The position numbers and the translations under genes are program-made. A DNA stretch of 64,000 nt, taken from contig NZ_LXKA01000254.1 in the NCBI RefSeq assembly GCF_001645125.1, positions 32,268 through 96,267 of the forward strand. The letters run 5' to 3'. The first letter of the stretch is position 1; each line of letters begins with the position of its first letter. Under the pieces are notes generated by a model. The model was not told the origin of the DNA, did not search any database, and saw nothing but the letters and a program-made list of their open reading frames with translations. Of this stretch, positions 4,760-56,449 are shown piece after piece. The DNA comes from Paraburkholderia ginsengiterrae. GTDB taxonomy: Bacteria; Pseudomonadota; Gammaproteobacteria; Burkholderiales; Burkholderiaceae.

Positions 4760-7700
4760 GTGTCCATACGCGTCGCGTTGCATCACGTCACACATTACCG
4801 CTACGACAGGCTGGTTTCGCTGTCGCCCCAGGTCGTGCGTCTGCGGCCGGCGCCGCATTGCCGGACCCCGATCCTGTCGTATTCCATGCGGGTCGAGCCG
4901 GCCCAGCACTTCGTCAACTGGCAGCAGGACGCCTTCGCCAACTATCAGGCGCGCCTCGTATTCCCGGAGAAGACCCGCGAATTCAAGGTGACGGTGGATC
5001 TGATCGCCGAGATGGCGGTCTACAACCCGTTCGATTTCTTTCTAGAACCCTCGGCCGAGCAATTCCCCTTCGAGTATTCGTCGGACCTCGCGCTGGAGCT
5101 CGCCCCGTACCGCATCAAGCGGCCGATGACGCCGCGCTTCGCCGAGTTCGTGGCGAGTATCGACCGTACGCCCGCTCGCACCTCCGACTTCCTCGTCGCG
5201 CTGAATCAGCGGCTGCAACATGAGATCCGCTACCTGATCCGGATGGAGCCGGGGGTGCAGACGCCCGAGGAAACGCTGGTGAACGCCTCGGGCTCGTGCC
5301 GCGACTCGGGCTGGCTGCTGGTCGAGACCTTGCGGCAATTGGGGCTCGCCGCGCGCTTCGTGTCCGGCTACCTGCTGCAGCTTGCGCCCGACGTCAAATC
5401 CATCGACGGCCCGAGCGGCACGGAGGTCGATTTCACCGACCTGCACGCGTGGTGCGAGGTGTACCTGCCGGGCGCCGGCTGGATCGGCTTCGATCCGACT
5501 TCGGGCCTGCTGGCGGGAGAAGGGCATATCCCCGTCGCCTGCACGCCGGAGCCGGGCAGTGCAGCGCCGATCTCCGGCGCCGTCGACGAGTCCGAGGTCG
5601 AGTTCGCGCACACCATGTCGATCGAACGGATCCTGGAGACGCCGCGCGTCACCAAGCCGTATAGCGAGGAGGCATGGGCCGATGTGCTCAAAATGGGCGC
5701 GCAGGTCGACCAGCAGCTCGCCGGCATGGACGTGCGCCTGACCATGGGCGGCGAGCCGACCTTCGTCTCGGTGCGCGACCGCGACGCCGCCGAATGGAAC
5801 ACCGACGCGCTCGGCCCGACCAAACGCGGCTACGCGGTGGCGCTGATGGACAAGCTGCGCTCGCGCTACGGCGCGAACGGCTTCCTGCATATCGGCCAGG
5901 GCAAGTGGTATCCCGGCGAGCAATTGCCGCGCTGGGCGATGTCGCTGTACTGGCGCGCCGATGGCGAGCCGTGCTGGCACAACCCGGCGCTCTTCGGCGA
6001 CGAACGCGAGCCCGGCAACTACACCGCCGCCGACGCCCAGCGTTTCATCGCGCATCTCGCGACCAAACTGGCGCTCGACACGGACTGCATCCAGCCCGGT
6101 TTCGAGGACGTCTGGTACTACCTGTGGCGCGAGCGCCGCCTGCCCGTCAACGTCGATCCATTCGACGCCCGGCTCGACGACGAACTCGAGCGCGTGCGTC
6201 TGCGTCGCGTGTTCGACGCGGGCCTCTCGCAAGCAACCGGTTATGTGCTGCCGCTCGCACGCGAACGCGACGTGCCGCACCAGTCGCCGAAGTGGGTCAG
6301 CGGCCGCTGGTTCTTCCGCGACGAGCGCATGTATCTGATTCCGGGCGATTCGCCGATGGGTTATCGCCTGCCGCTCGACACGCTGCCCTGGGTGTCGAAG
6401 ACCGACTACCCGTATCAGCACGCGCATGATCCGTTCGCGCCGCCCGTGCCCTTGCGATCGGCCGCACAGTTGCGCCTGCAATACGACGGCGCGCCGCAGA
6501 CGGTGAGCCCGGCCGATGCACGGCGGGCGGCGGCGTTGTCTTCCTCGGCGGCGGACTTGCTGAGCGGCATGCCGGGCGCCGGCGTGCTTGCCTTTGCGCC
6601 GCAGCGTGGCGACGGCGAGGCGCCGGCGCGCGGCCAATCGTCGAAGGAAACGATCCGCACGGCGATTTGCGTCGAAGCGCGCGACCCCAAGCGCGCCGCC
6701 GGCCCGAAGGCCGAAACGGCGGCGTTCGGCAGCGGCCGCACGCTGCTGCATGTGTTCATGCCGCCGCTCACGGAACTCGACGACTATCTCGAACTGCTCG
6801 CGGCGGTCGAAGCGACGGCGGCCGAGTTGCGCATGCAGGTGGTGCTCGAAGGCTATCCGCCGCCGCGCGATGCGCGCCTCAAAATGTTGCAGGTGACGCC
6901 GGACCCCGGTGTGATCGAAGTGAACATTCACCCGGCGGCGAATTGGGATCAACTGGTCGATCACACGGAGTATCTGTACCAGTCGGCGCATGAAAGCTAT
7001 CTCAGCAGCGAGAAGTTCATGACCGACGGCCGGCACACCGGCACCGGCGGCGGCAATCACTTCGTGCTCGGCGGCGCGACACCCGCCGACAGCCCGTTCC
7101 TGCGCCGCCCCGATCTGCTCGCCAGCCTGCTCGCGTACTGGCACAACCATCCTTCACTGTCGTACCTGTTCTCGGGCCTGTTCATCGGACCGACCAGCCA
7201 GGCGCCGCGGATCGACGAAGCCCGCAACGATCAGGTCTATGAGCTCGAAGTGGCGTTGCGCGAATTGCAGCGGCAGATCGACCTGCTCGGCGGCCGCGAT
7301 AGCGCGAGCCTGCCGGCCTGGATGATCGACCGCTCGTTGCGCAACATCCTGATCGACGTGACGGGCAATACGCACCGCGCCGAGTTCTGCATCGACAAAC
7401 TCTATTCGCCCGATGGTCCTACCGGCCGTCTCGGCCTGCTCGAACTGCGCGGTTTCGAAATGCCGCCGCACGCGCGCATGAGTCTCGTGCAGCAACTGTT
7501 GCTGCGCGCGCTGGTGGCGCGCTTCTGGCATACGCCGTACACGCAGCGGCTCACGCGTTGGGGCACCGAACTGCACGACCGCTTCCTGCTCGGCACTTTC
7601 GTCAAGATGGATTTCGACGACGTGCTCGGCGAGTTGAACCGCGCGGGCTTCGCGTTCGACAGCAGCTGGTTCGCGCCGCACTTCGAATTCCGTTTCCCGC

Positions 7701-8233
7701 TGGTTGGCGAGGTCTCGGTGAACGGCATCGAGCTGACGATCCGCAGCGCCCTCGAACCGTGGCACGTGATGGGCGAGGAAGGCTCCCCGGGCGGCACGGT
7801 GCGTTACGTGGATTCATCGGTGGAACGGCTCGAAGTGCGCGCGCTGGGCCTGAACGGCAACCGCCACGTAGTGACCGTCAACGGGGTGCCGGTGCCGTTG
7901 CAGCCGACCGGCCGCGTCAGCGAATATGTGGCCGGTGTGCGTTTTCGCGCGTGGTCGCAGCCGTCGGCGCTGCATCCGACCATCGGCGTGGACGCGCCAC
8001 TCACTTTCGATCTGGTCGATACATGGACTGCCCGCTCGGTGGGCGGATGCCAGTATCATGTCGCTCATCCGGGCGGGCGCAGTTACGACACCTTCCCGGT
8101 CAACGCCTACGAGGCTGAAAGCCGGCGGCGCGCGCGTTTCTACGCGTCGGGACATACGCCGGGGCCGCTCACGGTCGATGAGCCGCAGCGCGGTCTCGAG
8201 TTTCCGTTCACGCTGGACCTGCGCTACTGGTAA
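4760..8233 (+). CDS. Transglutaminase-like/DUF2126 multidomain protein (amidoligase locus 1)
   Basis: A 1157-residue protein. The N-terminal third is a bacterial transglutaminase-like module: the N-terminal beta domain (about 1-85), then the Cys-His-Asp triad at Cys180 (GSCRDSG), His229 (LHAW) and Asp245 (GFDPTSG). From about residue 320 to the end is DUF2126, with conserved stretches such as MGGEPTFVS, IGQGKWYPGEQ, IEVNIHP, TGTGGGNHF and RIDEARND. The E-x-N and GGGNH-type motifs resemble glutamine-synthetase/GCS-like amidoligases, so DUF2126 may form amide bonds; that is inference. The GTG start at 4760 is favoured by AGGAG six bases upstream and because it begins at the family N-terminus (VALHHVTHYRY after it). 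It starts a three-gene set with the ATP-grasp/alpha-E fusion 39 bp downstream. Physiological role and substrate are unknown. Confidence 0.88.
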   Translation: MSIRVALHHVTHYRYDRLVSLSPQVVRLRPAPHCRTPILSYSMRVEPAQHFVNWQQDAFANYQARLVFPEKTREFKVTVDLIAEMAVYNPFDFFLEPSAEQFPFEYSSDLALELAPYRIKRPMTPRFAEFVASIDRTPARTSDFLVALNQRLQHEIRYLIRMEPGVQTPEETLVNASGSCRDSGWLLVETLRQLGLAARFVSGYLLQLAPDVKSIDGPSGTEVDFTDLHAWCEVYLPGAGWIGFDPTSGLLAGEGHIPVACTPEPGSAAPISGAVDESEVEFAHTMSIERILETPRVTKPYSEEAWADVLKMGAQVDQQLAGMDVRLTMGGEPTFVSVRDRDAAEWNTDALGPTKRGYAVALMDKLRSRYGANGFLHIGQGKWYPGEQLPRWAMSLYWRADGEPCWHNPALFGDEREPGNYTAADAQRFIAHLATKLALDTDCIQPGFEDVWYYLWRERRLPVNVDPFDARLDDELERVRLRRVFDAGLSQATGYVLPLARERDVPHQSPKWVSGRWFFRDERMYLIPGDSPMGYRLPLDTLPWVSKTDYPYQHAHDPFAPPVPLRSAAQLRLQYDGAPQTVSPADARRAAALSSSAADLLSGMPGAGVLAFAPQRGDGEAPARGQSSKETIRTAICVEARDPKRAAGPKAETAAFGSGRTLLHVFMPPLTELDDYLELLAAVEATAAELRMQVVLEGYPPPRDARLKMLQVTPDPGVIEVNIHPAANWDQLVDHTEYLYQSAHESYLSSEKFMTDGRHTGTGGGNHFVLGGATPADSPFLRRPDLLASLLAYWHNHPSLSYLFSGLFIGPTSQAPRIDEARNDQVYELEVALRELQRQIDLLGGRDSASLPAWMIDRSLRNILIDVTGNTHRAEFCIDKLYSPDGPTGRLGLLELRGFEMPPHARMSLVQQLLLRALVARFWHTPYTQRLTRWGTELHDRFLLGTFVKMDFDDVLGELNRAGFAFDSSWFAPHFEFRFPLVGEVSVNGIELTIRSALEPWHVMGEEGSPGGTVRYVDSSVERLEVRALGLNGNRHVVTVNGVPVPLQPTGRVSEYVAGVRFRAWSQPSALHPTIGVDAPLTFDLVDTWTARSVGGCQYHVAHPGGRSYDTFPVNAYEAESRRRARFYASGHTPGPLTVDEPQRGLEFPFTLDLRYW

Positions 8234-8272
8234 AACTGTTAAAACGCTGCACACGCTTAAAACGACATAACC

Positions 8273-10960
8273 TTGGCTTTCCAATCGACTTTTCCCTTCG
8301 AAACGTCCGCGGCTCGCGCGGACGCTTCGTCCTTGTTGCGCCTTTTGCCGGCCTACGAGGGACACTGGGACGAGTTGCGCGACGCCTCGGGCGCATTGCG
8401 CGAACCATGGCGGGAGTTTTTCGAGCGCCTCGGCGACGTCGGCATCGCGCGGCTCGAGGATCACCGCGCATCGCTCGCGCAGCAGATTCGCGATAACGAC
8501 ATCAGCTACAACGTCTACGCCGATAAGGGCGTGCCGCGGCCGTGGGCGCTCGACCTGCTGCCGTTCCTGATCAGCGAGGCCGAGTGGGCGCATATCGAGC
8601 GGGGCGTGACGCAGCGCGCGCATCTGCTCAACGCGATCGTCGCCGATGTTTACGGGCCGCAGACCTTGCTGCAACGCGGGCAATTGCCGCCCGCGCTGGT
8701 GTTCGGGCATCCCGGCTATCTGCGCCCGGTGAAGGGCTACACGCCGCCTGGCGGTCAATTCCTGCAGGTGGTCGCGGTCGATCTGGCGCGCACGCCCGGC
8801 GGCGACTGGACGGTGATGGCGCACCGCACCGAGGCGCCGTCCGGTCTCGGGTATGCGCTGGAAAACCGCCTGATCGTGTCGGCGCTATTCGCGGATCCGT
8901 TCCGCGCCTTGCGCGTGAGCCGCCTCGCGCCGACCTATTCGCAGCTGATCGCGACGCTCGTGCAGGCGGCGCAGGCCACCATGCGGCATGACAGCGAGGG
9001 GGCGGACAGGTCGCCGCATATCGCCTTGCTCACGCCGGGGCCGTTCAGCGAAACCTACTTCGAACATGTGTTCCTCGCGCGCTATCTCGGCGTCACGCTG
9101 GTCGAAGGCAAAGACCTGACCGTTCGCGACGACAAGCTCTATCTGAAGACACTCGGCGGTCTCGAACGCGTGCACGTGGTGCTGCGCCGTCTCGACGACG
9201 CCTTCTGCGACCCGGTCGAACTGCGGGCCGATTCCAGCATCGGCGTGCCCGGTTTGCTGCAGGTGATGCGCGCGGGCAATGTGATCGTCTCGAACGTGCC
9301 GGGCTCGGGCTTCGTCGAATCGCCGGCGCTGCACGGTTTTCTGCCGGGCATCGCCGAAGTGCTGCTCGAGGAAGATCTCGTGCTGCCGAGCGTGGCCACG
9401 TGGTGGTGCGTCCGGCAGACGGCGGTCGGGCACGCATTCGCGCGGATGGACGACGCGTTCATCGTGCCGACATGGCCGGTGGCCGCCCGCGACGCGCCAC
9501 CCGGCGTGGAGCAGGGCCGGCAGCGGCTGGCGGCGTGGCGTGAGCGCATCGAGGCGATGCCCGACACCTTCACGATCCAGCAGGCGCTGCGCTTTTCCTG
9601 CACGCCGCGTTACGAAGAAGGCACGATTGGCCGTCGCCCCTCGGTACTGCGCGTCTACGCGATTGCCGATGCCAGCGGCGGCTGGCATGTCATGCCGGGC
9701 GGCTTCACGCGCATGGCGGCGGAGCGCCAGGCCACAGTGTCAATGCAGTACGGCGGCAGCAGCGTCGACACGTGGGTGCTGTCGAGCCAGCCGACGTCGA
9801 CCTTCACGCTGCTGCCCTCGCCGATCCAGCCGGCCGACCTCGCGCGCAAGCATCGCACCGTGTCGAGCCGTGCGGCGGAAAACCTGTTCTGGGCCGGACG
9901 CTACGGCGAACGCGCCGAAAACAACGTGCGCCTGTTGCGCCTGATTCTCGGCTCGCTGGAAGGCAACGATGCCGAGGCCATGTTCCCGACCCTGGTCGAA
10001 CTTGCGCTGTACTGCGGCCTCGTGCAGTCCGGCGACATGTCCGCGCCGCATTCGCCGCAAGCCTTCGAGCGCGCGCTGGTCGCGAACCTGAGCGAGAGCA
10101 CCGGCACTGCGAGCATCGGCCAGAATCTGAGCGCGCAGGCGCGCTCGAACGGCGAAGTGCGCGGGCGGCTCTCGAACGATCACTGGCGCATGATTCTCGC
10201 GGCCCGCAACGACTTCCGCGATGCGTTGCAGGAGTTGATGCCGGCTCCGGGTGTTGGCGGCGCGGCATCGCCAGGCGAGGGCAACGGAATTGCCGGCACC
10301 AATCGCAACGACCGCAGCAACGGCAGCGGCAACGCCAATGGCGCCACGAATTGCTGCGGCGAACGCTACGACCGTCTCACGCTGATGGACGCGCTCGAAC
10401 ACCTGTCGGTGCAGCTATCGGCGATCAGCGGCGCCCAGGGCGACCGCATGACGCGCGACGAAGCGTGGCGGCTGCTTTTCGTGGGACGGCACATCGAACG
10501 TGTGTCGGCCATGACCTCCATTTTGCGCATCGTCGCGGATCACGGACAGCTTGCCACGCCCGCCGGATTCGACCTGCTGCTGCAACTGTTCGACAGCACG
10601 CTGACCTATCGCGCGCTCTATCCGGGCCGCTTCGAAGTGCCTGCCTTGCTCGACCTGCTCGTGATCGAACCGACCAATCCGCGCGGCGTTTACGGCGTGT
10701 ACGAACGGTTGCGCAAAAAGCTCGACGAGATCGCGGTGGCGGCGGGCAGTACGCGGCATCGTCCGTTCGCCGAACTGATGGCGCCCGTCGCTTCTCTGCC
10801 GACGCTCGAATCGCTGTGCACCGTCGACGAAAGCAAGGACTACGGCAATCTGATGGCGGTATGCGATCAGATCGGCACGTATGCCGGCGCGGCCGCGCAT
10901 GAAATCAGCGCGCGCTATTTCAGTCACGCCAGCACGATTGCCTCGCAGGTGTGGTCATGA
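8273..10960 (+). CDS. Circularly permuted ATP-grasp / alpha-E fusion protein (amidoligase locus 1)
   Basis: An 895-residue protein joining two modules that are separate genes in locus 2. Residues about 20-500 are a circularly permuted ATP-grasp domain (COG2308 type), with motifs such as NDISYNVYADKG, FLQVVAVD, VEGKDLTVRDDKLY and VPGLLQVMRAGNVIVSN. From about 530, beginning ENLFWAGRYGERAENN, is an alpha-E domain (COG2307, DUF403). A Gly/Asn/Ser-rich insert at about 660-695 interrupts the alpha-E part. ATP-grasp enzymes ligate a carboxylate to an amine through an acyl-phosphate; the alpha-E domain is of unknown activity. The TTG at 8273 is the first usable start, but no strong ribosome site is visible and a later start is possible. 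The downstream transglutaminase gene overlaps its stop (ATGA), so the two are translationally coupled. Confidence 0.88.
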   Translation: MAFQSTFPFETSAARADASSLLRLLPAYEGHWDELRDASGALREPWREFFERLGDVGIARLEDHRASLAQQIRDNDISYNVYADKGVPRPWALDLLPFLISEAEWAHIERGVTQRAHLLNAIVADVYGPQTLLQRGQLPPALVFGHPGYLRPVKGYTPPGGQFLQVVAVDLARTPGGDWTVMAHRTEAPSGLGYALENRLIVSALFADPFRALRVSRLAPTYSQLIATLVQAAQATMRHDSEGADRSPHIALLTPGPFSETYFEHVFLARYLGVTLVEGKDLTVRDDKLYLKTLGGLERVHVVLRRLDDAFCDPVELRADSSIGVPGLLQVMRAGNVIVSNVPGSGFVESPALHGFLPGIAEVLLEEDLVLPSVATWWCVRQTAVGHAFARMDDAFIVPTWPVAARDAPPGVEQGRQRLAAWRERIEAMPDTFTIQQALRFSCTPRYEEGTIGRRPSVLRVYAIADASGGWHVMPGGFTRMAAERQATVSMQYGGSSVDTWVLSSQPTSTFTLLPSPIQPADLARKHRTVSSRAAENLFWAGRYGERAENNVRLLRLILGSLEGNDAEAMFPTLVELALYCGLVQSGDMSAPHSPQAFERALVANLSESTGTASIGQNLSAQARSNGEVRGRLSNDHWRMILAARNDFRDALQELMPAPGVGGAASPGEGNGIAGTNRNDRSNGSGNANGATNCCGERYDRLTLMDALEHLSVQLSAISGAQGDRMTRDEAWRLLFVGRHIERVSAMTSILRIVADHGQLATPAGFDLLLQLFDSTLTYRALYPGRFEVPALLDLLVIEPTNPRGVYGVYERLRKKLDEIAVAAGSTRHRPFAELMAPVASLPTLESLCTVDESKDYGNLMAVCDQIGTYAGAAAHEISARYFSHASTIASQVWS

Positions 10961-11847
10961 AGCACGCGCCGACCGTGCTGTCCGTTTCGCATCGCACGAC
11001 CTATCACTACTCCACGTATGTGGAAACCGCGCAGCATCTCGCCACGATCCGGCCGATCGCCTGCGCGTGGCAGCGTGTGGTCTCGCACGGCGAGAAGATC
11101 GAGCCGGAGCCTTCGTATCTGAACAGCCGTATCGACGCGTTCGGCAACGATGTGCTGTATTTCGCGCTCGATGCGCCGCACGAACGCCTGCAACTGGTCA
11201 GCGAAACCATCGTGGCGCTCACGCCGCGCTGGACCGACCTCGACCCGGACGCGACCCCGGCATGGGACGAACTGGCCGAGGCGCTGCGCTTTAGCGTCGG
11301 TGGAAAGTTCCGGCCCGAAGTGGAGTTCTGTTTCGCGTCGCCGAACATCGTGCCGCGCCCGTCGCTGCGCGACTATGCGGAACCGAGCTTTCCGCCCGGC
11401 GTACCGGTCGCCGCGGGCGCGATCGATCTGATGCACCGCATTCATGCGGACTTTGAGTACAAGCCTTCGGCGACGATGTTCGACACGCCTGCCGAGCGCG
11501 CCTTCGAATTGAAGAGCGGCGTCTGCCAGGACTTCGCGCAGGTGATGATCGGCTGTTTGCGCTCGCTGGGTTTGCCGGCGCGCTATGTGAGCGGTTATCT
11601 GCGCAACGATCCGCCGCCCGGCCAGCCGCGTCTGATCGGCGCGGACGCGTCGCATGCGTGGGTGTCGGTGCATTGTCCCGGCAGTGGCTGGATCGATCTC
11701 GACCCGACCAACGACGTGCTCGCCGATACGGACCACGTGACGCTCGCCATTGGGCGCGACTACAGCGACGTGTCCTTGCTGCGCGGCATGATTCTCGGCG
11801 GCGGCGCGCATCGGGTGGAAGTGGGCGTCACGGTGCTTGCGCTTTAA
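10957..11847 (+). CDS. Transglutaminase-like cysteine peptidase family protein (amidoligase locus 1)
   Basis: A 296-residue protein of the COG1305 type: an N-terminal beta domain (SHRTTYHYS near the start) followed by the papain-like core with Cys in GVCQDF, His in SHAW and Asp in IDLDPTND. These proteins can cleave or form amide/isopeptide bonds. No signal peptide is seen. The ATG at 10957 overlaps the stop of the ATP-grasp/alpha-E gene (ATGA) and is preferred over the GTG two codons earlier. It is the third module of locus 1 and parallels the gene at 54599-55426 in locus 2. Confidence 0.88.
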   Translation: MKHAPTVLSVSHRTTYHYSTYVETAQHLATIRPIACAWQRVVSHGEKIEPEPSYLNSRIDAFGNDVLYFALDAPHERLQLVSETIVALTPRWTDLDPDATPAWDELAEALRFSVGGKFRPEVEFCFASPNIVPRPSLRDYAEPSFPPGVPVAAGAIDLMHRIHADFEYKPSATMFDTPAERAFELKSGVCQDFAQVMIGCLRSLGLPARYVSGYLRNDPPPGQPRLIGADASHAWVSVHCPGSGWIDLDPTNDVLADTDHVTLAIGRDYSDVSLLRGMILGGGAHRVEVGVTVLAL

Positions 11848-11967
11848 GCCTTCCAGCAAGTGTTTTTCTAGTCAGACGAATGCCGGCGGCGTGCCGCGCA
11901 TCGGCCGCCGCACGTTCATTGATCCCGGCTCGGGGAAAACCCTCTCCATCAATTCCCATTGAGCGAG

Positions 11968-11997
11968 AATTCAATTTTTGAATTTTGAGAACGTTCT
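11968..11997. promoter_or_regulatory. Two adjacent palindromes before an IclR-type regulator gene
   Basis: AATTCAA-TTT-TTGAATT (11968-11984) is a perfect dyad with 7-bp arms, followed three bases later by the perfect palindrome AGAACGTTCT (11988-11997). They end 39 bp before the start of the IclR gene in an AT-rich stretch, which suits an operator used for autoregulation or control of the ABC/hutG operon. Seen directly; the function is inferred. Confidence 0.5.
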
Positions 11998-12036: not shown

Positions 12037-12786
12037 GTGAATGCGGAACAGGGTGTAACAGGGGCTGAGCGGGTACTGCTGGTGCTGGCGGCGCTTGCCA
12101 GTCACGGCAAGGCCATGTCGGTGAAGGATCTGCTGGCGGTGACCGGACTCGCGCAAAGCACGTTGTACCGGCAGATCGCCTTGCTCAAGCGCTGGGGTTT
12201 CGTCGCGGAAAACGCCGGACATTACGCACCGGGTCCGATCAGCTTGCAGCTTGCGCTCGGCTTCGACGTGAACTCGCTGCTCGTTGAAGCGAGCCGCAGC
12301 GAGATGCAGCAGCTCGCGCGCGCCTCGCAGGAAAGCATCGGGCTGGTGGTGGCTGTCAAGCATCAGGTCATGTGTCTCGAGATGGTCGACAGCCAGCACT
12401 CGCTGCGCTGCTCATTCGAGAAGGGCCGCGCGGTGCCGCTCAAGGCGGGTGCGTCGGCGAAATCGCTGCTCGCCTTCATGGCCGACAAGGCACGCACCGA
12501 AGTACTCGATAACGTGTTCGCCAACGATCCGGCCGGCCGCGCCGCGATTGAAGCCGAACTCGAACAGATTCGCGCCCAGGGTTACGCCGTCAGCGACAGC
12601 GAGGTGGACCCTGGCGTGTGGGGCGTGAGCGCCCCGATCTTTCACCGCAGCGGACGCGGCGCCGGCTGCAGCGCATCGATCACGCTGATGGCGCCGTCCA
12701 CGCGCGCTATCGGCCGCGAAAGCCAATTCATCGACGGGACGCTACGTACGGCCCGCGCTATTTCCGAGCATTTGCAAACCGATTGA
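12037..12786 (+). CDS. IclR-family transcriptional regulator
   Basis: A 249-residue regulator with an N-terminal winged HTH (about 5-65; ERVLLVLAALASHG, SVKDLLAVTGLAQSTLYRQ) and a C-terminal IclR effector domain (LKAGASAKSLLAFM, ISEHL near the end). It starts with GTG. It precedes, on the same strand, an amino acid ABC importer and a formimidoylglutamase gene, so it probably senses the transported compound or a derivative. Two palindromes lie just upstream of its start. Confidence 0.85.
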   Translation: MNAEQGVTGAERVLLVLAALASHGKAMSVKDLLAVTGLAQSTLYRQIALLKRWGFVAENAGHYAPGPISLQLALGFDVNSLLVEASRSEMQQLARASQESIGLVVAVKHQVMCLEMVDSQHSLRCSFEKGRAVPLKAGASAKSLLAFMADKARTEVLDNVFANDPAGRAAIEAELEQIRAQGYAVSDSEVDPGVWGVSAPIFHRSGRGAGCSASITLMAPSTRAIGRESQFIDGTLRTARAISEHLQTD

Positions 12787-12863
12787 ACGGACTTGACCAA
12801 ACTGATTCAATCCGGATTCCGAACGAATTGAGTCAGCCAAACGAACCACAAGGAGGCTACCCC

Positions 12864-13619
12864 ATGAAACTGCAACGACTGTTGTCTCTCGCCTGCGTGA
12901 CCTTTGCAGTGACTTTCGCCGGATTCACCGGCGCCGCTTCAGCACAAACGCCGGACGTGCTGAACGTCGCCACCGACGCCACCTTCCCGCCGATGGAGTA
13001 CACCGAGAACGGCGCGCACACCGGCTTCGACGTCGACATGATGAATGCGCTCGCCAAGGCGATGGGCAAGCGCGTGCAATGGACCGACATCGACTTCAAA
13101 GGGCTGATTCCGGGCTTGATCGCGCATCGCTTCGATGTCGCCATCTCCGGCATCTACATCACGGATGAGCGCGCGAAAGTGGTCGATTTCACCGACTCGT
13201 ATTACGCGGGCGGCCTCGTCGCACTGGTGAAGGCCGATTCGCCGATCAAGTCGGTCGCGGAGTTGAACGGCAAGAAAGTCTCGGTTCAGGTGGGCACGAA
13301 GTCGGTGAACTTCCTGCGCGACAACTTCCCGCAGATCAATCGCGTTGAAGTGGAAAAGAACCAGGAAATGTTCGACCTCGTGGGCATTGGCCGCGCCGAT
13401 GCCGCCGTGACCGGCAAGCCTGCCGCGTATCAGCTCGTGCGCACGCGCGGCGGTTTCCGCGTGCTCGAAAAGCCGCTGACGACCGAAGCCTACGGCATTG
13501 CCGTGCGCAAGGACGAGCCGCAACTGAAAGCCGCGCTCAATACCGCGCTCGCGAAGATCAAGGCCGACGGCACGTATGCGGCGATCGTCAAGAAGTGGTT
13601 TGGTCCGAGCGCGCAATAA
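12864..13619 (+). CDS. Polar amino acid ABC transporter, periplasmic substrate-binding protein
   Basis: A 251-residue protein with a cleavable signal peptide (MKLQRLLSLACVTFAV; cleavage near ASA-QT) and the SBP family 3 fold: DATFPPMEY, GFDVDMMNALAKAMG, FKGLIPGLIAHRFDV and a late GPSAQ terminus. This family binds His, Gln, Arg, opines or related polar amino acids. The start is fixed by AAGGAGG at 12850-12856, seven bases ahead of the ATG; the longer open frame lacks this. First gene of a four-gene set with permease, ATPase and formimidoylglutamase, whose last three members overlap. Confidence 0.9.
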   Translation: MKLQRLLSLACVTFAVTFAGFTGAASAQTPDVLNVATDATFPPMEYTENGAHTGFDVDMMNALAKAMGKRVQWTDIDFKGLIPGLIAHRFDVAISGIYITDERAKVVDFTDSYYAGGLVALVKADSPIKSVAELNGKKVSVQVGTKSVNFLRDNFPQINRVEVEKNQEMFDLVGIGRADAAVTGKPAAYQLVRTRGGFRVLEKPLTTEAYGIAVRKDEPQLKAALNTALAKIKADGTYAAIVKKWFGPSAQ

Positions 13620-13636
13620 TAGGCAGAGCAAACCAA

Positions 13637-14305
13637 ATGGAACTCGATTTTTCGCCGGTGATTGCCGGCTTGCCGGACATCATGCATGGCGCGGTGGTGA
13701 CGGTCGAAGTGACCGCCGCCTCGCTCGCGCTGAGCTGTCTGCTTGGCCTGTTGATCGGCATTGGCCGGCTCTCGCCGCAGCGGCGCGTGGTGTACGGCTT
13801 GTGTACCGCCTATCTGACGTTCTTCCGCGGCACGCCGTTGCTCGTGCAACTCTTTCTCCTGTTCTTCGGCTTGCCGCAATTCGGCATTCTGCTGCCGGCG
13901 TTCGTGTGCGGCATGCTCGGGCTCGGTTTCTATTCCGCGGCCTACGTGTCGGAGATCGTGCGTGGTGCGATCCAGTCGGTGGATCGCGGGCAGATGGAAG
14001 CGGCGCGTTCGATCGGCATGTCGTCGGGGCAGGCCATGCGCGCGATTATTCTGCCGCAAGCCATCGTTCGGATGATCCCGCCGCTTGGCAACGAGTTCAT
14101 CGCGCTGATCAAGAACTCCGCGCTGGTGTCGCTGCTGACGATCGACGATCTGATGCATGAAGGGCAGAAGATTATCAGCGTGTCGTACCGTTCACTCGAA
14201 GTGTATCTGGCGATTGCGCTGGTCTATCTGGTGTTGACGCAGGCGACCAATTACGCACTGCATCGTGTCGAGCGCCGTTTGCGTGCAGGAGGGATGGTGC
14301 AATGA
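13637..14305 (+). CDS. Polar amino acid ABC transporter permease
   Basis: A 222-residue inner-membrane protein of the HisM/GlnP type. It has about five hydrophobic segments and the permease loop containing [22 protein letters not shown], where it contacts the ATPase (the EAA motif). The ATG at 13637 gives an N-terminus typical of the family. Its stop overlaps the ATPase start (ATGA). It works with the binding protein just upstream and with the ATPase at 14302. Confidence 0.9.
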
Positions 14306-15078
14306 ATACCGTGGCCAATGGTAATGGACCTATTGTCAGCATCCGCGGGCTGACCAAATCGTTCGGCTCGCATACGGTGCTCAACGGCATCGACTTCGAC
14401 ATCCAGCCGCAGCAGGTCGTGGTGGTGATCGGGCCGAGCGGCTCGGGCAAGAGCACGTTCCTGCGCTGCTGCAACGGCCTCGAGCAGGCCGAAGGCGGCA
14501 CGATCGATATCTGCGGGCATCGGCTGGTCGATCACGGCGCGATGCTCAAGGAGCGTTCGCTGAATGCGCTGCGCACCGAGGTCGGCATGGTGTTTCAGTC
14601 GTTCAATCTGTTTCCGCATCTGTCGGTGCTGCATAACATCACCGTCGGGCCGCGTATGCTGCGCGGCGCCAGCAAGGCAGAGGCCGAAGCGGCCGCGCTC
14701 GCGTTGCTGGAAAAGGTCGGGCTCGCGCACAAGGCGCATGTCATGCCGGCGAGCCTCTCAGGCGGGCAGAAGCAACGGGTGGCGATTGCCCGGGCGCTCG
14801 CCATGCAACCGCGCGTGATGCTGTTCGACGAACCGACCTCCGCGCTCGATCCGGAACTCGTCGGCGAGGTGCTGCAGGTCATGAAGCTGCTCGCCAGCGA
14901 GGGCATGACGATGGTGGTCGTCACGCACGAAATGGGTTTCGCGAAAGAAGTCGCCGACGTGGTGGTGGTGATGGACGGCGGCGTGATCGTCGAGGCGGGA
15001 CCGCCGGCCGAGATTTTCTCGGCGCCTTCGCAGCCGCGCACGCGGGCATTCTTGCAGGCGGTGTTGTCGCGCGCATGA
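14302..15078 (+). CDS. Polar amino acid ABC transporter ATP-binding protein
   Basis: A 258-residue ABC ATPase of the GlnQ/HisP type. It shows Walker A (GPSGSGKST), Q-loop ([10 protein letters not shown]), signature (LSGGQKQR), Walker B ([12 protein letters not shown]) and the switch His (VTHEMGFA). The start overlaps the permease stop and the stop overlaps the hydrolase start (ATGA in both), showing tight translational coupling through to the formimidoylglutamase gene. Confidence 0.93.
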
Positions 15079-16043
15079 GAGTTCCATTCGATGACAAGGT
15101 GTGGGCCGGCCGTTCCGACGACGGCGAGCCCGGCGACACGCGGCGCATTTTCAATCAGGTCGCGCCGTTCGGCACGGCGCAGCGGCTGCAAGGCGAAACG
15201 CCGGTGATCGTCGGGTTTGGATCAGATGAAGGCGTGCGCCGCAATCAGGGCCGCGTTGGCGCGGCACACGCACCGAAGGAGTTGCGGCGCGCGCTGGCGG
15301 GCTTGCCGGCCAAGGCCAACATGGCGTCGCTCACCGACGCGGGCGACGTGGTGTGCGACGACGGCGATCTCGAAAGCGCGCAGCTGGAACTGGCCAACGT
15401 GGTGAGCGAGGTACTGGCGAGCGGCGGCCGTCCGTTGGTTTTTGGCGGCGGACATGAGGTGGCGTGGGGCACTTATAGCGGCTGGCGTCTGCATCAGGCG
15501 GGTGAGGCCGCTGGGGCGACCGAATCGGCCACGTCGCGCAAGCTGCTGATCATCAACTTCGACGCGCACTTCGACTTGCGCCAGAAGCGTCCGGCGAACT
15601 CAGGCACGCCGTTTGACCAGATTGCGAACGACTGTGCGCAACGAGGCGTACCGTTCGACTATATCTGTTTCGGTGTCAGCGATCTGGGTAACACAGCTTC
15701 GCTGTTCGCGCACGCCGAGCGGCTCGGCGTGCGCTATCTGCTCGATGCAGACATGCAGGAGAACCAGTTGCCGCAGCGCCTGCGCGAGCTTGAACAGTGG
15801 CTGGAGGCGGTGGACGACGTCTATCTGACCATTGATCTCGACGTGCTGCCGGCTGCCACGGCGCCAGGGGTGTCGGCGCCTGCGGCATTAGGTGTGCCGT
15901 TGTCGGTGGTCGAGGCGATGGTGCGATGCGTGCGCGAATCAGGCAAGCTGCGCGTGGCGGATATCGCCGAGTACAATCCTTCACTCGATCAGGACAGGCG
16001 CACCGCGATGGCGGCCGCCCGGCTGGCTTACCGTTTGTTGTAG
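15075..16043 (+). CDS. hutG: Formimidoylglutamase (ureohydrolase/arginase family)
   Basis: A 322-residue protein of the arginase/agmatinase fold. The manganese-site motifs are GGGHE, NFDAHFD and [13 protein letters not shown]; the last form, with DLDVLPA, is characteristic of HutG-type formimidoylglutamases, which hydrolyse N-formimidoyl-L-glutamate to glutamate and formamide. The substrate is assigned from these motifs and is less certain than the fold. It overlaps the ABC ATPase gene, so importer and enzyme are made together; no other histidine-utilisation gene is in the window. That suggests uptake of a formimidoyl or guanidino-type amino acid for direct hydrolysis. Confidence 0.82.
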
Positions 16044-51188: not shown

Positions 51189-51641
51189 ATGCCGACTTCC
51201 GCAAAAAAGGTGGCCAAGAAGGCTGCTGCCCCGGTACCGACCAAGAAGGTTGCTGCAAAGAAAGTTCCTGCGAAGAAAGCTGTCGCAGCTAAGAAGGTCG
51301 CCGTGAAGGCGTCCAGCGCACCGTCGCCGATCAAGGACACCTTCACGAAGGCCTCGCTGGCTGCACACGTCGCAGAACGCGCCGCTGTGGAACCGAAGAC
51401 CGCCAAGGCCGTGCTGGCCGCGCTCGAAGACACGATCCTCGGCGCTGTGCACAAGAAGGGCGCTGGCGAATTCACGCTGTCGGGTCTTCTGAAGATCGTC
51501 GTGCAAGCTGTGCCGGCGAAGAAGAAGCGCTTCGGCAAAGACCCGTTCTCGGGCGAAGAGCGTTGGTTCCCGGCCAAGCCGGCTAGCGTGCGCATCAAGG
51601 CACGTCCGCTGAAGAAGCTGAAGGACGCTGCTGCAGCCTGA
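51189..51641 (+). CDS. HU-family nucleoid protein with histone H1-like Lys/Ala tail
   Basis: A 150-residue basic protein. Residues 1-46 are a Lys/Ala/Pro/Val-rich tail with repeated AKK and KKV units, like eukaryotic H1 tails and Alg/HC1-type bacterial histones. Residues about 47-150 are an HU/IHF-type domain (TKASLAAHVAERAAVEPKTAKAVL; GEFTLSGLL; FGKDPFSGEERW, the DNA-bending arm). It probably compacts or bends DNA. The ATG at 51189 has GGAG six bases upstream. A strong terminator follows. Confidence 0.88.
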   Translation: MPTSAKKVAKKAAAPVPTKKVAAKKVPAKKAVAAKKVAVKASSAPSPIKDTFTKASLAAHVAERAAVEPKTAKAVLAALEDTILGAVHKKGAGEFTLSGLLKIVVQAVPAKKKRFGKDPFSGEERWFPAKPASVRIKARPLKKLKDAAAA

Positions 51642-52063
51642 TCGCGCTTCGGGCGTTAGCTGCTGTTTTTAACAATGGCTGACGCTTGAGATGCCCTGAA
51701 GGACATCCCTTCAGGGGCGACCCGCAGTGCAAGTTGTCTGAATCCCCGTGGATGCGAATCCACGGGGATTTTTTTATGCGCCGCTTTTTAGGCGGTTTCG
51801 CAGCGGATCGCGGATCCTGCGCTGCACCCAAAGAGACATCTTTCGAGGCGCATCGCGGTGCCAGGCACGCACCGTACTGGCGCATCATGAGCCGCCGCAG
51901 TACGATGGCAGCGAAACCATGCTGGCCGGGATGCGCTGTTTGCGTGCATGCAATGTCTGTCGCGCGCGAAAAATCCAATGGCATAGCGCTTGCTTGAACG
52001 ATTGTCGAACACCGAATGCGCAGCGCATTCGCCTTCTATCCGACAACAAGAGCGGGGCGTGAC
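51642..52063. other. Intergenic region before amidoligase locus 2
   Basis: Holds a 9-bp-arm hairpin CCCTGAAGG/CCTTCAGGG (51694-51716), the strong terminator at 51741-51775, and at 51832-51868 a copy of the dispersed-repeat-like element also seen at 43801-43837. The promoter for locus 2 must lie in the remaining stretch (about 51870-52060), but I cannot place it. Short open frames here have no recognisable content. Confidence 0.5.
51741..51775 (+). terminator. Rho-independent terminator of the HU gene
   Basis: Perfect 12-bp arms AATCCCCGTGGA/TCCACGGGGATT with a 6-nt loop and a seven-T run overlapping the stem end, about 100 bp after the HU stop. Confidence 0.92.
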
Positions 52064-53473
52064 ATGCGATGCTATGACGAGATGCGTCATCACGACGATG
52101 CCGTGCGGCCACATTACGCACGCTTTGAGCGGTGGCTGGTGAAGCAGGGTAACGAGGCGATCGCGCGTAAACGCGCGGAAGCCGACCTGCTGTTTCGCCG
52201 GGTCGGTATCACCTTCGCGGTGAACGGCGACCTGTCGGGCACCGAGCGGCTGATTCCATTCGATCTGATTCCGCGCATCATTCCGCGCGGCGAATGGCAG
52301 ACGCTGGAGGCGGGTTTGCGTCAGCGGGTGCAGGCGCTCAATCTGTTTATCCACGACGTCTACCACGATCGCAATATCGTGCGCGCCGGTATCGTGCCGG
52401 CCGAGCAGGTCTATACCAACGCGCAGTACCGGCCCGAAATGCAGGGCGTGAATGTGCCACTCGGTGTTTACGCGCATATCGCTGGTGTCGACGTGGTGCG
52501 CGCGGGCGACGCAGGCGAGTTCTACGTGCTCGAAGACAACCTGCGGGTGCCCTCAGGCGTGTCCTATATGCTCGAAAACCGCAAGATGATGATGCGGCTT
52601 TTCCCCGAGCTGTTCGTGCAGAACCGCATCGCGCCGGTCGCGCATTATCCCGATCTGCTGCTCGACATGCTGCGTTCGGTCGCGCCCGAGGGCGTGGACG
52701 ATCCGGTCGTGGTGGTGCTCACGCCGGGCATGTACAACTCCGCGTATTTCGAGCACACCTTCCTCGCGCAGCAAATGGGCGTGGAGCTGGTGGAAGGCAA
52801 GGATCTATTCGTCGACGACAACTATGTGTTCATGCGCACCACGCAGGGACCGAAGCGCGTCGACGTGATCTACCGTCGTGTGGACGACGATTTTCTCGAT
52901 CCGCTCGCCTTCCGAAACGATTCGGCGCTGGGCGTGCCGGGTCTCCTGACCGCGTATCGCGCCGGACGCGTGGCGCTCGCCAACGCCATGGGCACCGGCA
53001 TCGCCGACGACAAATCGATCTATCCGTACGTGCCGGACATGATCGAGTTTTACCTCGGCGAGAAGCCGATCCTCAATAACGTACCCACGTTCCAGTGCCG
53101 CAAGGCTGACGACCTGGCGTACACGCTCGCGCATTTGCCGGAGCTGGTGGTCAAGGAAGTGCACGGCGCGGGTGGCTACGGCATGCTCGTCGGACCGGCT
53201 TCGACGAAAGCCGAAATCGAATCGTTCCGCGAGCGGTTGATCGCGCGGCCCGCGGGCTATATCGCGCAGCCCACGCTGGCGCTCTCCGCGTGTCCGACGT
53301 TCGTCGAGTCCGGTATTGCGCCGCGCCATATCGACCTGCGGCCATTCGTGCTGTCGGGCAAAACCGTCACGATGGTGGCGGGCGGTCTCACGCGCGTGGC
53401 GTTGCAGGAGGGTTCGCTTGTCGTCAATTCGTCACAGGGAGGCGGGACCAAAGATACCTGGATGGTCGACTGA
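52064..53473 (+). CDS. Circularly permuted ATP-grasp protein (amidoligase locus 2)
   Basis: A 469-residue COG2308-type protein, the stand-alone counterpart of the N-terminal part of the 8273-10960 fusion. Motifs: PFDLIPRIIPRGEW, LNLFIHDVYHDRNI, VLEDNLRVPSGVSYM, GVELVEGKDLFVDDNYVFM, and VPGLLTAYRAGRVALANAMG, with C-terminal QPTLALSACPTF. It is expected to activate a carboxylate with ATP for amide ligation. The ATG at 52064 (MRCYDEM) is the usual family start; a frame 16 codons longer exists. First gene of a four-gene set with alpha-E, transglutaminase and Anbu. Confidence 0.9.
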   Translation: MRCYDEMRHHDDAVRPHYARFERWLVKQGNEAIARKRAEADLLFRRVGITFAVNGDLSGTERLIPFDLIPRIIPRGEWQTLEAGLRQRVQALNLFIHDVYHDRNIVRAGIVPAEQVYTNAQYRPEMQGVNVPLGVYAHIAGVDVVRAGDAGEFYVLEDNLRVPSGVSYMLENRKMMMRLFPELFVQNRIAPVAHYPDLLLDMLRSVAPEGVDDPVVVVLTPGMYNSAYFEHTFLAQQMGVELVEGKDLFVDDNYVFMRTTQGPKRVDVIYRRVDDDFLDPLAFRNDSALGVPGLLTAYRAGRVALANAMGTGIADDKSIYPYVPDMIEFYLGEKPILNNVPTFQCRKADDLAYTLAHLPELVVKEVHGAGGYGMLVGPASTKAEIESFRERLIARPAGYIAQPTLALSACPTFVESGIAPRHIDLRPFVLSGKTVTMVAGGLTRVALQEGSLVVNSSQGGGTKDTWMVD

Positions 53474-53573
53474 CGCGGTTGCCGATGCGGTTGCAGAGGT
53501 CTCACTTGACGCAACCGCCCGCAACCTGGCGCACCGGGGCAGTATGCAGCCTGCCACCGGCGCACACGGATAA

Positions 53574-53589
53574 CCCGCGCGGGCTTTTT
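53574..53589 (+). terminator. Weak terminator-like palindrome inside locus 2
   Basis: CCCGCGCGGG (53574-53583) followed by CTTTTT, in the 163-bp gap between ATP-grasp and alpha-E genes. The stem is only three base pairs around a GCGC loop, so at most it would attenuate transcription. Confidence 0.35.
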
Positions 53590-53636
53590 ACCTTGCCTTC
53601 GACAAGGCCTCGCGTCATCAGATACGGAATGCCGTC

Positions 53637-54587
53637 ATGCTAAGCCGAACCGCCGATCACCTTTTCTGGATGGCCCGCTATATGGAGCGCGCGGAGAACA
53701 CCGCCCGCATGCTCGACATCAACCTGAAGGCGCTGCTGTTGCCGCAGACGCCTGAGCAGGAAGCTCGCGCGCAACGTTCGGTGTTGCGCATCTCCGAACT
53801 CGAAACCGCGTTCGCGCAGCGCTACGACGAACCGACCCGTGAAAACGTGCTCGATTTCATGGTGGCGGATGCGACCAATCCGTCGAGCATTCACTCGTGT
53901 TTGCAGGCCGCGAGAGAAAACGCCCGCGCCGTGCGCGGCACCTTGACGACCGAGTGGTGGGAAACCATCAACGATACGTGGCTCGAGTTCAACGAGCGCA
54001 TCTCGTCCGGCCAGGCCGGGGCCAATCCGGGCGCGCTGTTCGAATGGGTGAAGTTCCGCTCGCATCTCTCGCGCGGCGTGACGATCGGCACCGCGCTGCA
54101 GGACGATGCGTTCTTCTTCACGCAGCTTGGCACCTTTCTGGAGCGGGCCGACAACACCGCGCGGATTCTCGACGTGCGCTTTGCCGACGTCGAACCGAAT
54201 TCGCGCGACGCCGCGCGCCAGCTCGAAGATTTCTACTACTGGACCTCGATTCTGAGTTCGGTGTCGGCGCTGGAGATCTATCGCAAGGTGTATCGCGATG
54301 TCGTCACGCCGGCGCGTGTGGTCGAACTGATGATCCTGAACCAGCAGATGCCGCGTTCGCTGCTGGCGTCGCTCGAAGGTGTCTGCGCGAATCTGGCGAT
54401 GCTGCGCACCTCGGGCTCGAACCAGTGCGAGCGTTTCGCCGGCAAGCTGCGCGCCGAGCTCGTGTACTCCGACATCCGGCAGATTTTCGAAGCCGGCCTG
54501 CACGCCTATCTGACGCAGTTCCTTGCTCGCGTGTTCGAGCTAGGCAATCTGGTTGCGCGTACCTATCTGATGCTGCCAGTCGCCTGA
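53637..54587 (+). CDS. Alpha-E domain protein (DUF403; amidoligase locus 2)
   Basis: A 316-residue all-helical protein beginning MLSRTADHLFWMARYMERAENTARMLD, the signature start of COG2307. It corresponds to the C-terminal part of the 8273-10960 fusion. Later motifs are VTIGTALQDDAFFFTQLGTFLERADNTARILDVR and MLNQQMPRSL-like ILNQQMPRSLL. The biochemical role is unknown; the constant pairing with ATP-grasp suggests it completes or positions that enzyme. Confidence 0.9.
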   Translation: MLSRTADHLFWMARYMERAENTARMLDINLKALLLPQTPEQEARAQRSVLRISELETAFAQRYDEPTRENVLDFMVADATNPSSIHSCLQAARENARAVRGTLTTEWWETINDTWLEFNERISSGQAGANPGALFEWVKFRSHLSRGVTIGTALQDDAFFFTQLGTFLERADNTARILDVRFADVEPNSRDAARQLEDFYYWTSILSSVSALEIYRKVYRDVVTPARVVELMILNQQMPRSLLASLEGVCANLAMLRTSGSNQCERFAGKLRAELVYSDIRQIFEAGLHAYLTQFLARVFELGNLVARTYLMLPVA

Positions 54588-54598
54588 CGGAGTTTCCC

Positions 54599-55426
54599 AT
54601 GTACCTGACGATCCGCCACGACACGTCCTATCGCTACGAAGCGACTGTCCATTATTCAATCCAGCAATTGCGTCTGACGCCCGCAAGCGGTGCGTCCCAG
54701 GTGGTGCGGCGCTGGGGCATCGACGCGCCGGGCAAGCTCGACTCGACCTTCGACGCTTACGGCAACGTGCTGCACACGCTGGTCATCAACAAGCCGCATA
54801 GCGAGATTCGTCTGCAGGTGACCGGCGAGGTCGAGACGATTCCGTTGGTCGACGGTCATTTGCGCGACGGCGTCGGCCCGATTCCGCTCGAGCATTTCAC
54901 CTGCTCGACCCGGCTGACCGAAGCCGACGCGGCGATCCGCGAACTGGCCGCGTCGGTGCCGGCACTGTCGAGTTCGGCCCATCTGATCCAGCTGTCGGAG
55001 CAGATCGTGCAGCGCGTGAAGTACACCTCAGGTGTGACTGAGGTCACCAGCACGGCGGCTCAGGCGCTCGCGCTCGGCAACGGCGTGTGTCAGGATCATG
55101 CGCATCTGATGCTCGCGTGCTGCCGCGCGCGCCGCGTCCCGGCGCGCTATGTGAGCGGCTATATCGAGCCGGGCGAAGGGCGGGCCGAGGGAAGCCCCGC
55201 TGAGGATTCGCACGGCGCGAGCCATGCATGGGTCGACGTGTGGCTGGAGGGCACAGGCTGGATTTCCGTCGACGTCACGCACGCGGCGTTTGCCAGCGAA
55301 ATCTATTGCCGGCTCGCCGTCGCACGGGATTATGAAGCCGCCGCGCCGGTGCGCGGCAGGCGAATCGGCGGGCTGGAGGAGCAGCTGAAAGTGTCGGTGA
55401 CGGTCAGCGCCCAGCTGTCGCAATAG
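54599..55426 (+). CDS. Transglutaminase-like protein (amidoligase locus 2)
   Basis: A 275-residue COG1305-type protein. N-terminal beta domain (IRHDTSYRYEATVHYSIQ), then the core with Cys in GVCQDHAH, His in ASHAWVDVW and Asp in SVDVTHA. It is a paralogue of the protein at 10957-11847. The ATG at 54599 lies 11 bp after the alpha-E stop. No signal peptide, so it acts in the cytoplasm. Expected activity is cleavage or transfer at amide bonds. Confidence 0.9.
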   Translation: MYLTIRHDTSYRYEATVHYSIQQLRLTPASGASQVVRRWGIDAPGKLDSTFDAYGNVLHTLVINKPHSEIRLQVTGEVETIPLVDGHLRDGVGPIPLEHFTCSTRLTEADAAIRELAASVPALSSSAHLIQLSEQIVQRVKYTSGVTEVTSTAAQALALGNGVCQDHAHLMLACCRARRVPARYVSGYIEPGEGRAEGSPAEDSHGASHAWVDVWLEGTGWISVDVTHAAFASEIYCRLAVARDYEAAAPVRGRRIGGLEEQLKVSVTVSAQLSQ

Positions 55427-55576
55427 AGGACGAAGGCGGGCCGCCAGAGGCGCCAGCGAGCGCCAGCCCTCATAACCATTCAGGTTAAGCCCGCAACGGC
55501 CGTCATACAGCGTAGCGGGGCAGGGGCGCCGCATTACAATAGCCCCGTTCAGTCGTTTTTGCGGGACCTTTTCCTT

Positions 55577-56449
55577 ATGACTTACTGTGTCGCGATGTCC
55601 GTCGACGACGGGCTCGTGTTCCTCTCGGACACGCGCACGAATGCCGGCGTCGATCACATCAGCACCGCGCGCAAGATGTCGGTGTTCGAACAGCCGGGCG
55701 AACGCATGCTCGTACTGCTGGGCGCCGGCAATCTGTCGCTCACGCAAGCGGTGCTGCATGAGTTGTCCGAGCCCGCTGATGCTTCCCAGCCCACGCTCTG
55801 GAACGTGCCCACCATGGCCGACGCGGCCCGGGCAATCGGCCGTGCGGTGCGCGCCGTGCATCAGCGCGAGGCGGCGGCCTTGCAGGAATTCGGCGTCGAC
55901 TTCAATTGCAGCTTCATTCTGGGTGGGCAAATCGCCGGCAACCGGACGCGCCTGTTCATGATCTACGCGGCGGGCAACTTCATCGAAGCATCGGCGGTGA
56001 ACCCGTATTTCCAGATCGGCGAGGCCAAGTACGGCAAGCCGATCATCGATCGGGTCCTGACGCCCTCCACGCCGCTTGACGAGGCCGCCAAGTGCGCGTT
56101 GATCTCCATGGATTCGACGCTGCGCTCGAACCTGTCGGTCGGCTTGCCGCTCGATCTGCTGGTCTACGAGAAAGACGCGCTGCGCGTCACGCGCTTCGTC
56201 TCGATCGATCACGACAATACCTACTTCGAGATGATTCACCGCACATGGGGCGAGCGGCTGCGCCAGGTGTTCGGCGAAATTCCGGATCCGGACTGGCGGG
56301 ATTCGCCCGATGTGCCGTTGCTGCAGCGCGAGCGGATGCTGGTGTTGCACCGCGCGCCGGTCGGCGCCGACGGCATCGAGCACGAACTCGACGCGCGGCC
56401 CGCGCAGACGTTGGCGCAGGCGGATAAGGGCAAAGCGCAGCGAAAGTAG
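55577..56449 (+). CDS. Anbu proteasome-like peptidase (amidoligase locus 2)
   Basis: A 290-residue Ntn-hydrolase of the Anbu group, bacterial relatives of proteasome beta subunits and HslV. The start MTYCVAM puts Thr directly after Met, so it becomes Thr1 once Met is removed. SDTRTNAGVD provides the catalytic Asp17, and Lys32 sits where proteasomes have Lys33. The ATG at 55577 is therefore preferred over a start six codons upstream. GAGNLSLTQAVL and SFILGGQIAG are typical. Anbu is known to form open helical or ring assemblies and is found in conserved clusters with transglutaminase, alpha-E and ATP-grasp genes; its substrate is not known. Confidence 0.93.
   Translation: MTYCVAMSVDDGLVFLSDTRTNAGVDHISTARKMSVFEQPGERMLVLLGAGNLSLTQAVLHELSEPADASQPTLWNVPTMADAARAIGRAVRAVHQREAAALQEFGVDFNCSFILGGQIAGNRTRLFMIYAAGNFIEASAVNPYFQIGEAKYGKPIIDRVLTPSTPLDEAAKCALISMDSTLRSNLSVGLPLDLLVYEKDALRVTRFVSIDHDNTYFEMIHRTWGERLRQVFGEIPDPDWRDSPDVPLLQRERMLVLHRAPVGADGIEHELDARPAQTLAQADKGKAQRK

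Follow-up and report, generated by a model that had tools for sequence, protein, structure and literature searches.

Two loci lying about 40 kb apart in the genome of Paraburkholderia ginsengiterrae, within a stretch of 64,000 nucleotides (hereafter the window), share circularly permuted (CP) ATP-grasp, alpha-E and transglutaminase-like (TG) modules. In locus 1, the ATP-grasp and alpha-E modules form one fused protein, next to a TG protein that carries the domain DUF2126; in locus 2 they are separate genes, followed by the proteasome-like Anbu. As judged from the sequences, the ATP-grasp of locus 2 keeps the residues of a catalytically competent ligase, whereas that of locus 1 does not. Our favoured explanation, which we rate as reasonably probable, is that both loci belong to one amide-conjugation and recycling system for nitrogen starvation, in which two ligases differ in fold and an ATP-grasp/alpha-E protein takes part as a non-catalytic partner; the proposal is weakest in its chemistry and substrate. 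The genes concerned are the following.

4760..8233 (+), locus 1: transglutaminase-like domain plus DUF2126, a predicted amidoligase of glutamine-synthetase fold (Pfam Bact_transglu_N, Transglut_core and DUF2126 (1314 bits))
8273..10960 (+), locus 1: fused CP ATP-grasp and alpha-E, a predicted pseudo-ATP-grasp (Pfam CP_ATPgrasp_2, 446 bits; Alpha-E, 182 bits)
10951..11847 (+), locus 1: transglutaminase-like cysteine peptidase/transferase (Pfam; Cys, His and Asp motifs present)
52064..53473 (+), locus 2: stand-alone CP ATP-grasp, catalytic residues intact (Pfam CP_ATPgrasp_2, 556 bits; homologue of 3n6x)
53637..54587 (+), locus 2: stand-alone alpha-E protein (Pfam Alpha-E, 321 bits)
54599..55426 (+), locus 2: transglutaminase-like protein (Pfam; Cys, His and Asp motifs)
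55577..56449 (+), locus 2: Anbu, a proteasome-like Ntn-hydrolase homologue (match to solved Anbu structures)

This layout had been predicted from the letters of the DNA, and Pfam together with the Anbu structure matches bears it out, both for the modules and gene order of the two loci and for the fusion in locus 1 as opposed to separate genes with Anbu in locus 2. The TG gene between alpha-E and Anbu is an addition to the earlier gene list. Both ATP-grasp proteins cover the Pfam family CP_ATPgrasp_2 (PF14403) end to end (positions 1-374 of 374).

The ATP and metal site of the fused ATP-grasp

Active-site residues were compared in an alignment of 112 fused and 54 other CP rows, drawn from the window and 120 loci (L063-L182). 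Seven core residues of the Mg and ATP sites were scored, covering the E-x-N motif, the Lys and its Gly-rich loop, an Asp and an Asn. All seven are present in 53/53 full-length stand-alone rows, the locus-2 protein included, whereas fused copies have none (32 rows), one (69 rows) or two (11 rows) of them left, and more than two in 0/112, the window's copy included. The 54th 'stand-alone' row (L108, 13508-14767) was set aside as a contig-cut frame with a fused-type motif, and the aligned CP domain of fused row L067 is missing its C-terminal third. An earlier, smaller alignment (38 fused and 16 stand-alone rows) gives the same picture. The original prediction had staked itself beforehand on these ATP- and metal-binding residues: it stands for locus 2, where all seven are present, and fails for locus 1, where they are absent.

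In the PDB, both CP proteins match one entry significantly by sequence, 3N6X, and no other. The locus-2 ATP-grasp aligns with it over nearly its full length with every motif in place (E 8e-220). In the locus-1 protein, the 3N6X motifs E-D-N, D-L-R-P-F and V-N-S-S-Q-G-G read A-H-R, V-L-R-V-Y and V-S-M-Q-Y-G-G, and a glycine-free loop stands at the K..GGYG motif. Several replacements are nearly fixed among the 112 fused rows (N to R in 108, R to Q in 96, N to S in 94 and S to M in 96), and therefore represent a conserved change rather than noise. Other positions are common to both types: the Gly of P-S-G, the Arg of E-N-R and both Gly of G-V-P-G are found in 112/112 fused rows, the Arg of D-L-R-P-F and the Trp of K-D-T-W in 111/112, and the Glu of E-N-R in 97/112. 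We take the lost E-x-N and Lys to be Mg and ATP ligands, by analogy with glutathione and glutathionylspermidine synthetases; in the sequence of E. coli glutathionylspermidine synthetase (Gss), residues E330, N332 and K533 were read. The stand-alone ATP-grasp profile gave no alignment with E. coli Gss (hhalign probability 0.1), and the link of the CP proteins to glutathionylspermidine synthetase holds by predicted fold only.

The predicted model of the fused protein keeps the ATP-grasp fold, with 3N6X as best match and glutathionylspermidine and trypanothione synthetases, which join peptides to amines, among the nearest solved folds. On a tree of 194 rows, thinned to 78 at 72% identity, the fused and stand-alone types separate on a single branch, and the loci are conserved in relatives, as the original prediction would have it. 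The fused clade spans many families of Pseudomonadota and includes one metagenome-assembled genome each from Verrucomicrobiota and Acidobacteriota, which rules out an oddity confined to Paraburkholderia. The fused gene is under purifying selection, with a ratio of nonsynonymous to synonymous substitution rates (dN/dS) well below 1; together with its full-length frames, this rules out a decaying pseudogene. An old paralogue that has lost its catalytic site and has yet been retained over a phylum makes a clean example in an enzyme family. As a separate observation, the fused ATP-grasp/alpha-E at L096 5893-8418 has an unusually long branch in the tree (2.4 changes per column), and its function may have shifted or relaxed.

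Could the fused ATP-grasp still catalyse a reaction, either through a nucleotide or phosphoryl site that has been rearranged or with a pre-activated substrate? Conserved residues replace the old ones (Arg-Thr-Gln for Asn-Leu-Arg, and Ser-Met-Gln-Arg-Gly-Gly for Asn-Ser-Ser-Gln-Gly-Gly), and their near fixation, the retained model fold and purifying selection would all fit such an enzyme. So would the Lys, which 67/112 fused copies retain at the aligned position, in a loop that aligns poorly; this counts against the favoured explanation. On the other hand, no alternative conserved Glu/Asn pair or Gly-rich loop was seen in the aligned stretches, and the loop region is highly variable within the family. 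We therefore regard a rearranged enzyme as unlikely. With the ATP and metal site of the fused protein lost, the candidates for active ligases are the locus-2 ATP-grasp and the DUF2126 protein of locus 1. These are the proteins to assay, and the fused paralogue, which is probably inactive, is best treated as a binding partner.

Linkage and promoters of the two loci

The distribution of the families was surveyed in 299 genomes of Pseudomonadota. Because these genomes and their sequences are related, the counts cannot be taken as independent events and p values are only a guide; adjacency counts for CP and the numbers of fused genes are lower bounds, among the matches listed. DUF2126 was found in 84 genomes, Anbu in 102 and CP_ATPgrasp_2 in 161, of which 157 exceed the Pfam cut-off. 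All 84 DUF2126 genomes carry CP_ATPgrasp_2, compared with 161/299 overall (Fisher p 4e-29), a pairing that is therefore not due to chance and that upholds the predicted conservation and association of the modules. CP is likewise present in 101/102 Anbu genomes. In at least 38/84 genomes a stand-alone CP gene is found no more than 15 kb from DUF2126, and the same holds for Anbu in 16/84 (0.9-9.9 kb, start to start). At least 86 genomes have a complete fused frame; 85 of these also have a stand-alone CP gene, and the single one that does not is a 74%-complete assembly.

CP is present in 53 of 59 genomes sampled from the genus; the fused form occurs in 52, each of which has a stand-alone CP as well. 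Where fused and stand-alone CP genes share a contig (n=49), 15 pairs are compact, with the fused gene 6.3-7.6 kb downstream, and 33 are dispersed over 13.6-64.2 kb on the same strand with the fused gene upstream, which is the arrangement of the window; one pair is 712 kb apart on opposite strands. From these compact and dispersed spacings, the 40-kb gap appears as one state of a linked locus. A different layout is seen in genome G076 (family f32), where Anbu and a set of stand-alone CP and alpha-E genes are immediate neighbours of the TG-DUF2126 gene (L080, 2952-11451); no fused ATP-grasp was found in the L080 region or among the genome's two CP matches.

Three regulatory features precede the loci.

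4707..4722 (+): sigma-54-type -24/-12 promoter of locus 1 (CGGCATGAAGCTTGCT), one mismatch to TGGCRYN5TTGCW
51979..51994 (+): sigma-54-type -24/-12 promoter of locus 2 (TGGCATAGCGCTTGCT), the sole perfect match to TGGCRYN5TTGCW in the 64-kb window
52014..52030 (no strand): 17-bp perfect palindrome GAATGCGCAGCGCATTC, which closely follows the point where transcription of locus 2 is expected to start

Both promoter sites lie directly upstream of their loci. In the window and 10/10 fetched genus members, the locus-1 site keeps its GG and GC and the locus-2 site is retained, while the flanks of both have diverged in the ten members. With a score of at least 9 of 11 and GG and GC fixed, a qualifying site was found upstream of 44/78 DUF2126 homologues and of 26/40 stand-alone CP homologues (a set that retains the contig-cut L108 row and a partial L117 row), compared with 5/75 for the internal fused gene and 131/1620 for random stretches. 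The palindrome is identical in the window and in 10/10 fetched upstream regions of the genus. Extended to 25 bp, the sequence is unique in the genome; it may be an operator or a leader element. The 5′ leader of locus 2 folds no better than shuffles (z -0.04).

Published data on relatives, whose expression depends on nitrogen, agree with the conserved sites. In Burkholderia cenocepacia H111, the genes I35_5080-83, encoding CP, alpha-E, TG and large TG proteins, are placed in the NtrC/sigma-54 regulon, and the table for an ntrC mutant gives them values of -8.2, -9.4, -9.4 and -6.0 (excerpts of PMC5491218). In Pseudomonas putida, values of 4.44 for Anbu (PP_2685) and 3.99 for the CP-ATP-grasp (PP_2688) are given for nitrate versus ammonium (excerpts of PMC8050072). 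The gene set is thus probably under nitrogen-starvation control, and the promoter type at both loci points to nitrogen starvation as the condition to study.

The original prediction had read the two loci as two parallel systems that ligate, transfer and cleave related amide-linked products. Spelled out as a rival explanation, this would make them amidoligase systems independent of each other, with an active ATP-grasp ligase in either locus. Both loci indeed contain CP-ATP-grasp, alpha-E and TG modules; DUF2126 is far from the stand-alone CP gene in many genomes (for example 1.4-3.8 Mb on one contig in several), and of the 156 genomes in which the fused protein finds a match, 68 show just one, among the matches listed. 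Nevertheless, the loss of E-x-N, Gly-rich loop, Asp and Asn from the fused copies, the proximity of stand-alone CP to DUF2126, the promoter type common to both loci and the stand-alone partner that, among the matches listed, accompanies the fused gene in all but one genome speak against independence. We consider two parallel systems improbable, and this part of the prediction is not borne out. Because CP and Anbu genes lie near DUF2126, a sigma-54-type promoter precedes both loci and the fused gene comes with a stand-alone partner, we favour the two loci as parts of one system.

Besides the relatedness of the sampled genomes, several observations weigh against such a single system. DUF2126 and Anbu are uncorrelated among CP genomes (51/84 versus 50/77, p 0.63); not every part is therefore needed everywhere, which counts against a strict four-part machine. 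The fused gene is present without DUF2126 in 11 of the 86 genomes, among the matches listed, ruling out DUF2126 as its obligate partner. Conversely, nine DUF2126 genomes are without a complete fused frame among the matches listed. Contig ends may explain four of them (G085 and G153, where a second CP gene is cut beside DUF2126; G049 and G097, where DUF2126 is at the end), leaving G036, G064, G076 and G212 (all family f32) and G267. Matches to the sigma-54 consensus with at most one mismatch are not above chance in the window (16 versus 11.8 expected), and the promoter argument therefore rests on the position and conservation of the sites. NtrC-like sites over the window are also not above chance; the dyads found upstream of both loci are suggestive only, and NtrC control in the P. 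ginsengiterrae strain is something that we infer. Finally, with Yersinia bercovieri Anbu as bait, specific interaction with other operon proteins was not detected, according to excerpts of PMC6376114.

A proposed amide-conjugation and recycling system

Residue loss, the retained predicted fold, the single tree split, purifying selection, co-occurrence, adjacency and the sigma-54-type sites are results of computation; the binding partners, the chemistry and its direction, the substrate and the nitrogen control of this strain are what we infer. At low nitrogen, NtrC would become active and, with sigma-54 RNA polymerase, would have both loci transcribed. The locus-2 ATP-grasp would use ATP to activate a carboxylate and then couple it to an amine, and the glutamine-synthetase-like DUF2126 domain of locus 1 may carry out a second, chemically similar ligation. 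The fused ATP-grasp/alpha-E protein would not bind Mg-ATP and probably acts as a non-catalytic partner of the stand-alone ATP-grasp, serving as substrate holder, scaffold or regulator; the active paralogue, on which the presence of the fused gene depends, is its most likely partner. Transfer or cleavage of the resulting amides would fall to the TG cysteine enzymes and Anbu, allowing nitrogen-bearing units to be stored or recycled. By analogy with those of the nearest solved folds that link a peptide to an amine, the first candidates for the product are peptide-amine or peptide-amino acid conjugates. A wider version, in which ATP binding was lost once and early, and in which the pseudo-ligase across the sampled Pseudomonadota would be an obligate partner of the active ATP-grasp, uniting both ligase types and, where present, Anbu in one nitrogen-starvation machine, is put forward tentatively and seems to us doubtful.

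The DUF2126 catalytic domain is predicted, from its model, to have a glutamine-synthetase-like fold. Against solved structures, the single sequence reached a best E of 0.079, the profile matched below E 0.01 only in the TG part, and Foldseek alone likewise matched only the TG part at E below 0.001. Residues E346, E734, H781, E909 and R911 are invariant among 24 and 49 DUF2126 sequences, and may correspond to the active-site Glu, His and Glu-x-Arg of glutamine synthetase.

Anbu matches the solved structures 5loy (a designed Anbu; E 2.3e-95) and 5nyw (E 3.9e-81), and reaches 21.7 bits against the Pfam Proteasome family, under the cut-off of 22.4. Its translation contains the candidate catalytic set Thr1, Asp17 and Lys32, named (with Lys32/33) in excerpts of PMC6376114. 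The same excerpts report that none of the Anbu proteins assayed in vitro cleaved the tested peptides, and that the stand-alone ATP-grasp of Y. bercovieri releases phosphate from ATP; a hydrolase role of Anbu is putative. This lack of peptidase activity tells against protein tagging and degradation like that of pupylation and the proteasome, with ligases adding a tag and Anbu degrading the tagged proteins. Dop, moreover, scores no better than ordinary glutamine synthetases, and we give a tagging pathway only a small chance.

The genome as a whole (8.5 Mb, 393 contigs) has two CP_ATPgrasp_2, two Alpha-E, three Bact_transglu_N, one DUF2126 and one Anbu gene, all inside the window; family searches of the whole genome found no further member of these families outside it. 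The TG-DUF2126 protein is 94% identical to that of Paraburkholderia sp. BL9I2N2 and 91% to that of P. fungorum (best segments). The start codons of the original prediction look better than the longest frames at both loci: most of the relatives aligned have GGAG before the GTG at 4760, and the longer start at 52016 is unlikely given the one-base gap that one relative shows. No NCBIfam family matched the six proteins scanned, and Rfam gave 0 matches within the 64-kb window.

Neighbouring genes include a putative zinc metallopeptidase divergent from locus 1 (3339-4424, -; zinc ribbon and Peptidase_Mx), which has homologues in 17/120 fetched DUF2126 regions and may serve the system as an accessory. 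Locus 1 is directly followed (12082-16043, +) by an IclR-type regulator, a family-3 ABC transporter binding protein and an arginase-family enzyme, possibly another nitrogen-scavenging unit. An N-glycosyltransferase-like protein is encoded at 1280-3175 (-; HMW1C-type N-terminal and HMW1 domain 2 matches, weak Glyco_transf_41 match).

Comparison with known systems

The module set and the Anbu operon are already known, and the lost ATP site of the fused paralogue appears to be the new part. Excerpts of PMC8305402 and PMC13207237 name ATP-grasp genes of an unspecific kind and do not enter the comparison. No report of this loss was found in the literature searched, which left out the key paper (Iyer et al., 2009), and no paper on 'DUF2126' or 'COG4196' was found there, the most relevant one being outside its coverage.

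The glutamine synthetase superfamily (glutamine synthetase, GmaS, glutamate-cysteine ligase, YbdK and Dop) differs from the DUF2126 protein, which has large extra regions, an N-terminal TG domain and no detectable sequence match to it. The solved structure 3N6X, a putative glutathionylspermidine synthase of Methylobacillus flagellatus, matches both CP proteins in sequence; the fused protein is about 30% identical to it and lacks its E-D-N, K..GGYG, D-L-R-P-F and V-N-S-S-Q residues. The I35_5080-83 cluster of B. cenocepacia H111 likewise comprises CP-ATP-grasp (DUF404/407), alpha-E (DUF403), TG and large TG genes (excerpts of PMC5491218), the last of which would, from its description and place, be a TG-DUF2126 gene; these form one cluster there, whereas in the window genes of these kinds are divided between two loci with 40 kb between them. 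Closest to locus 2 is the Anbu operon of CP-ATP-grasp, alpha-E, TG and Anbu genes, predicted to be a peptide-synthesis or modification system (Iyer et al., 2009, as quoted in excerpts of PMC6376114, PMC5666114 and PMC3597751). Locus 2 (52064-56449, all +) has the same gene set in the order given in the excerpts of PMC6376114; here it is joined in the genome, and often adjoined in relatives, by TG-DUF2126 and by a fused ATP-grasp/alpha-E protein with a lost ATP site.

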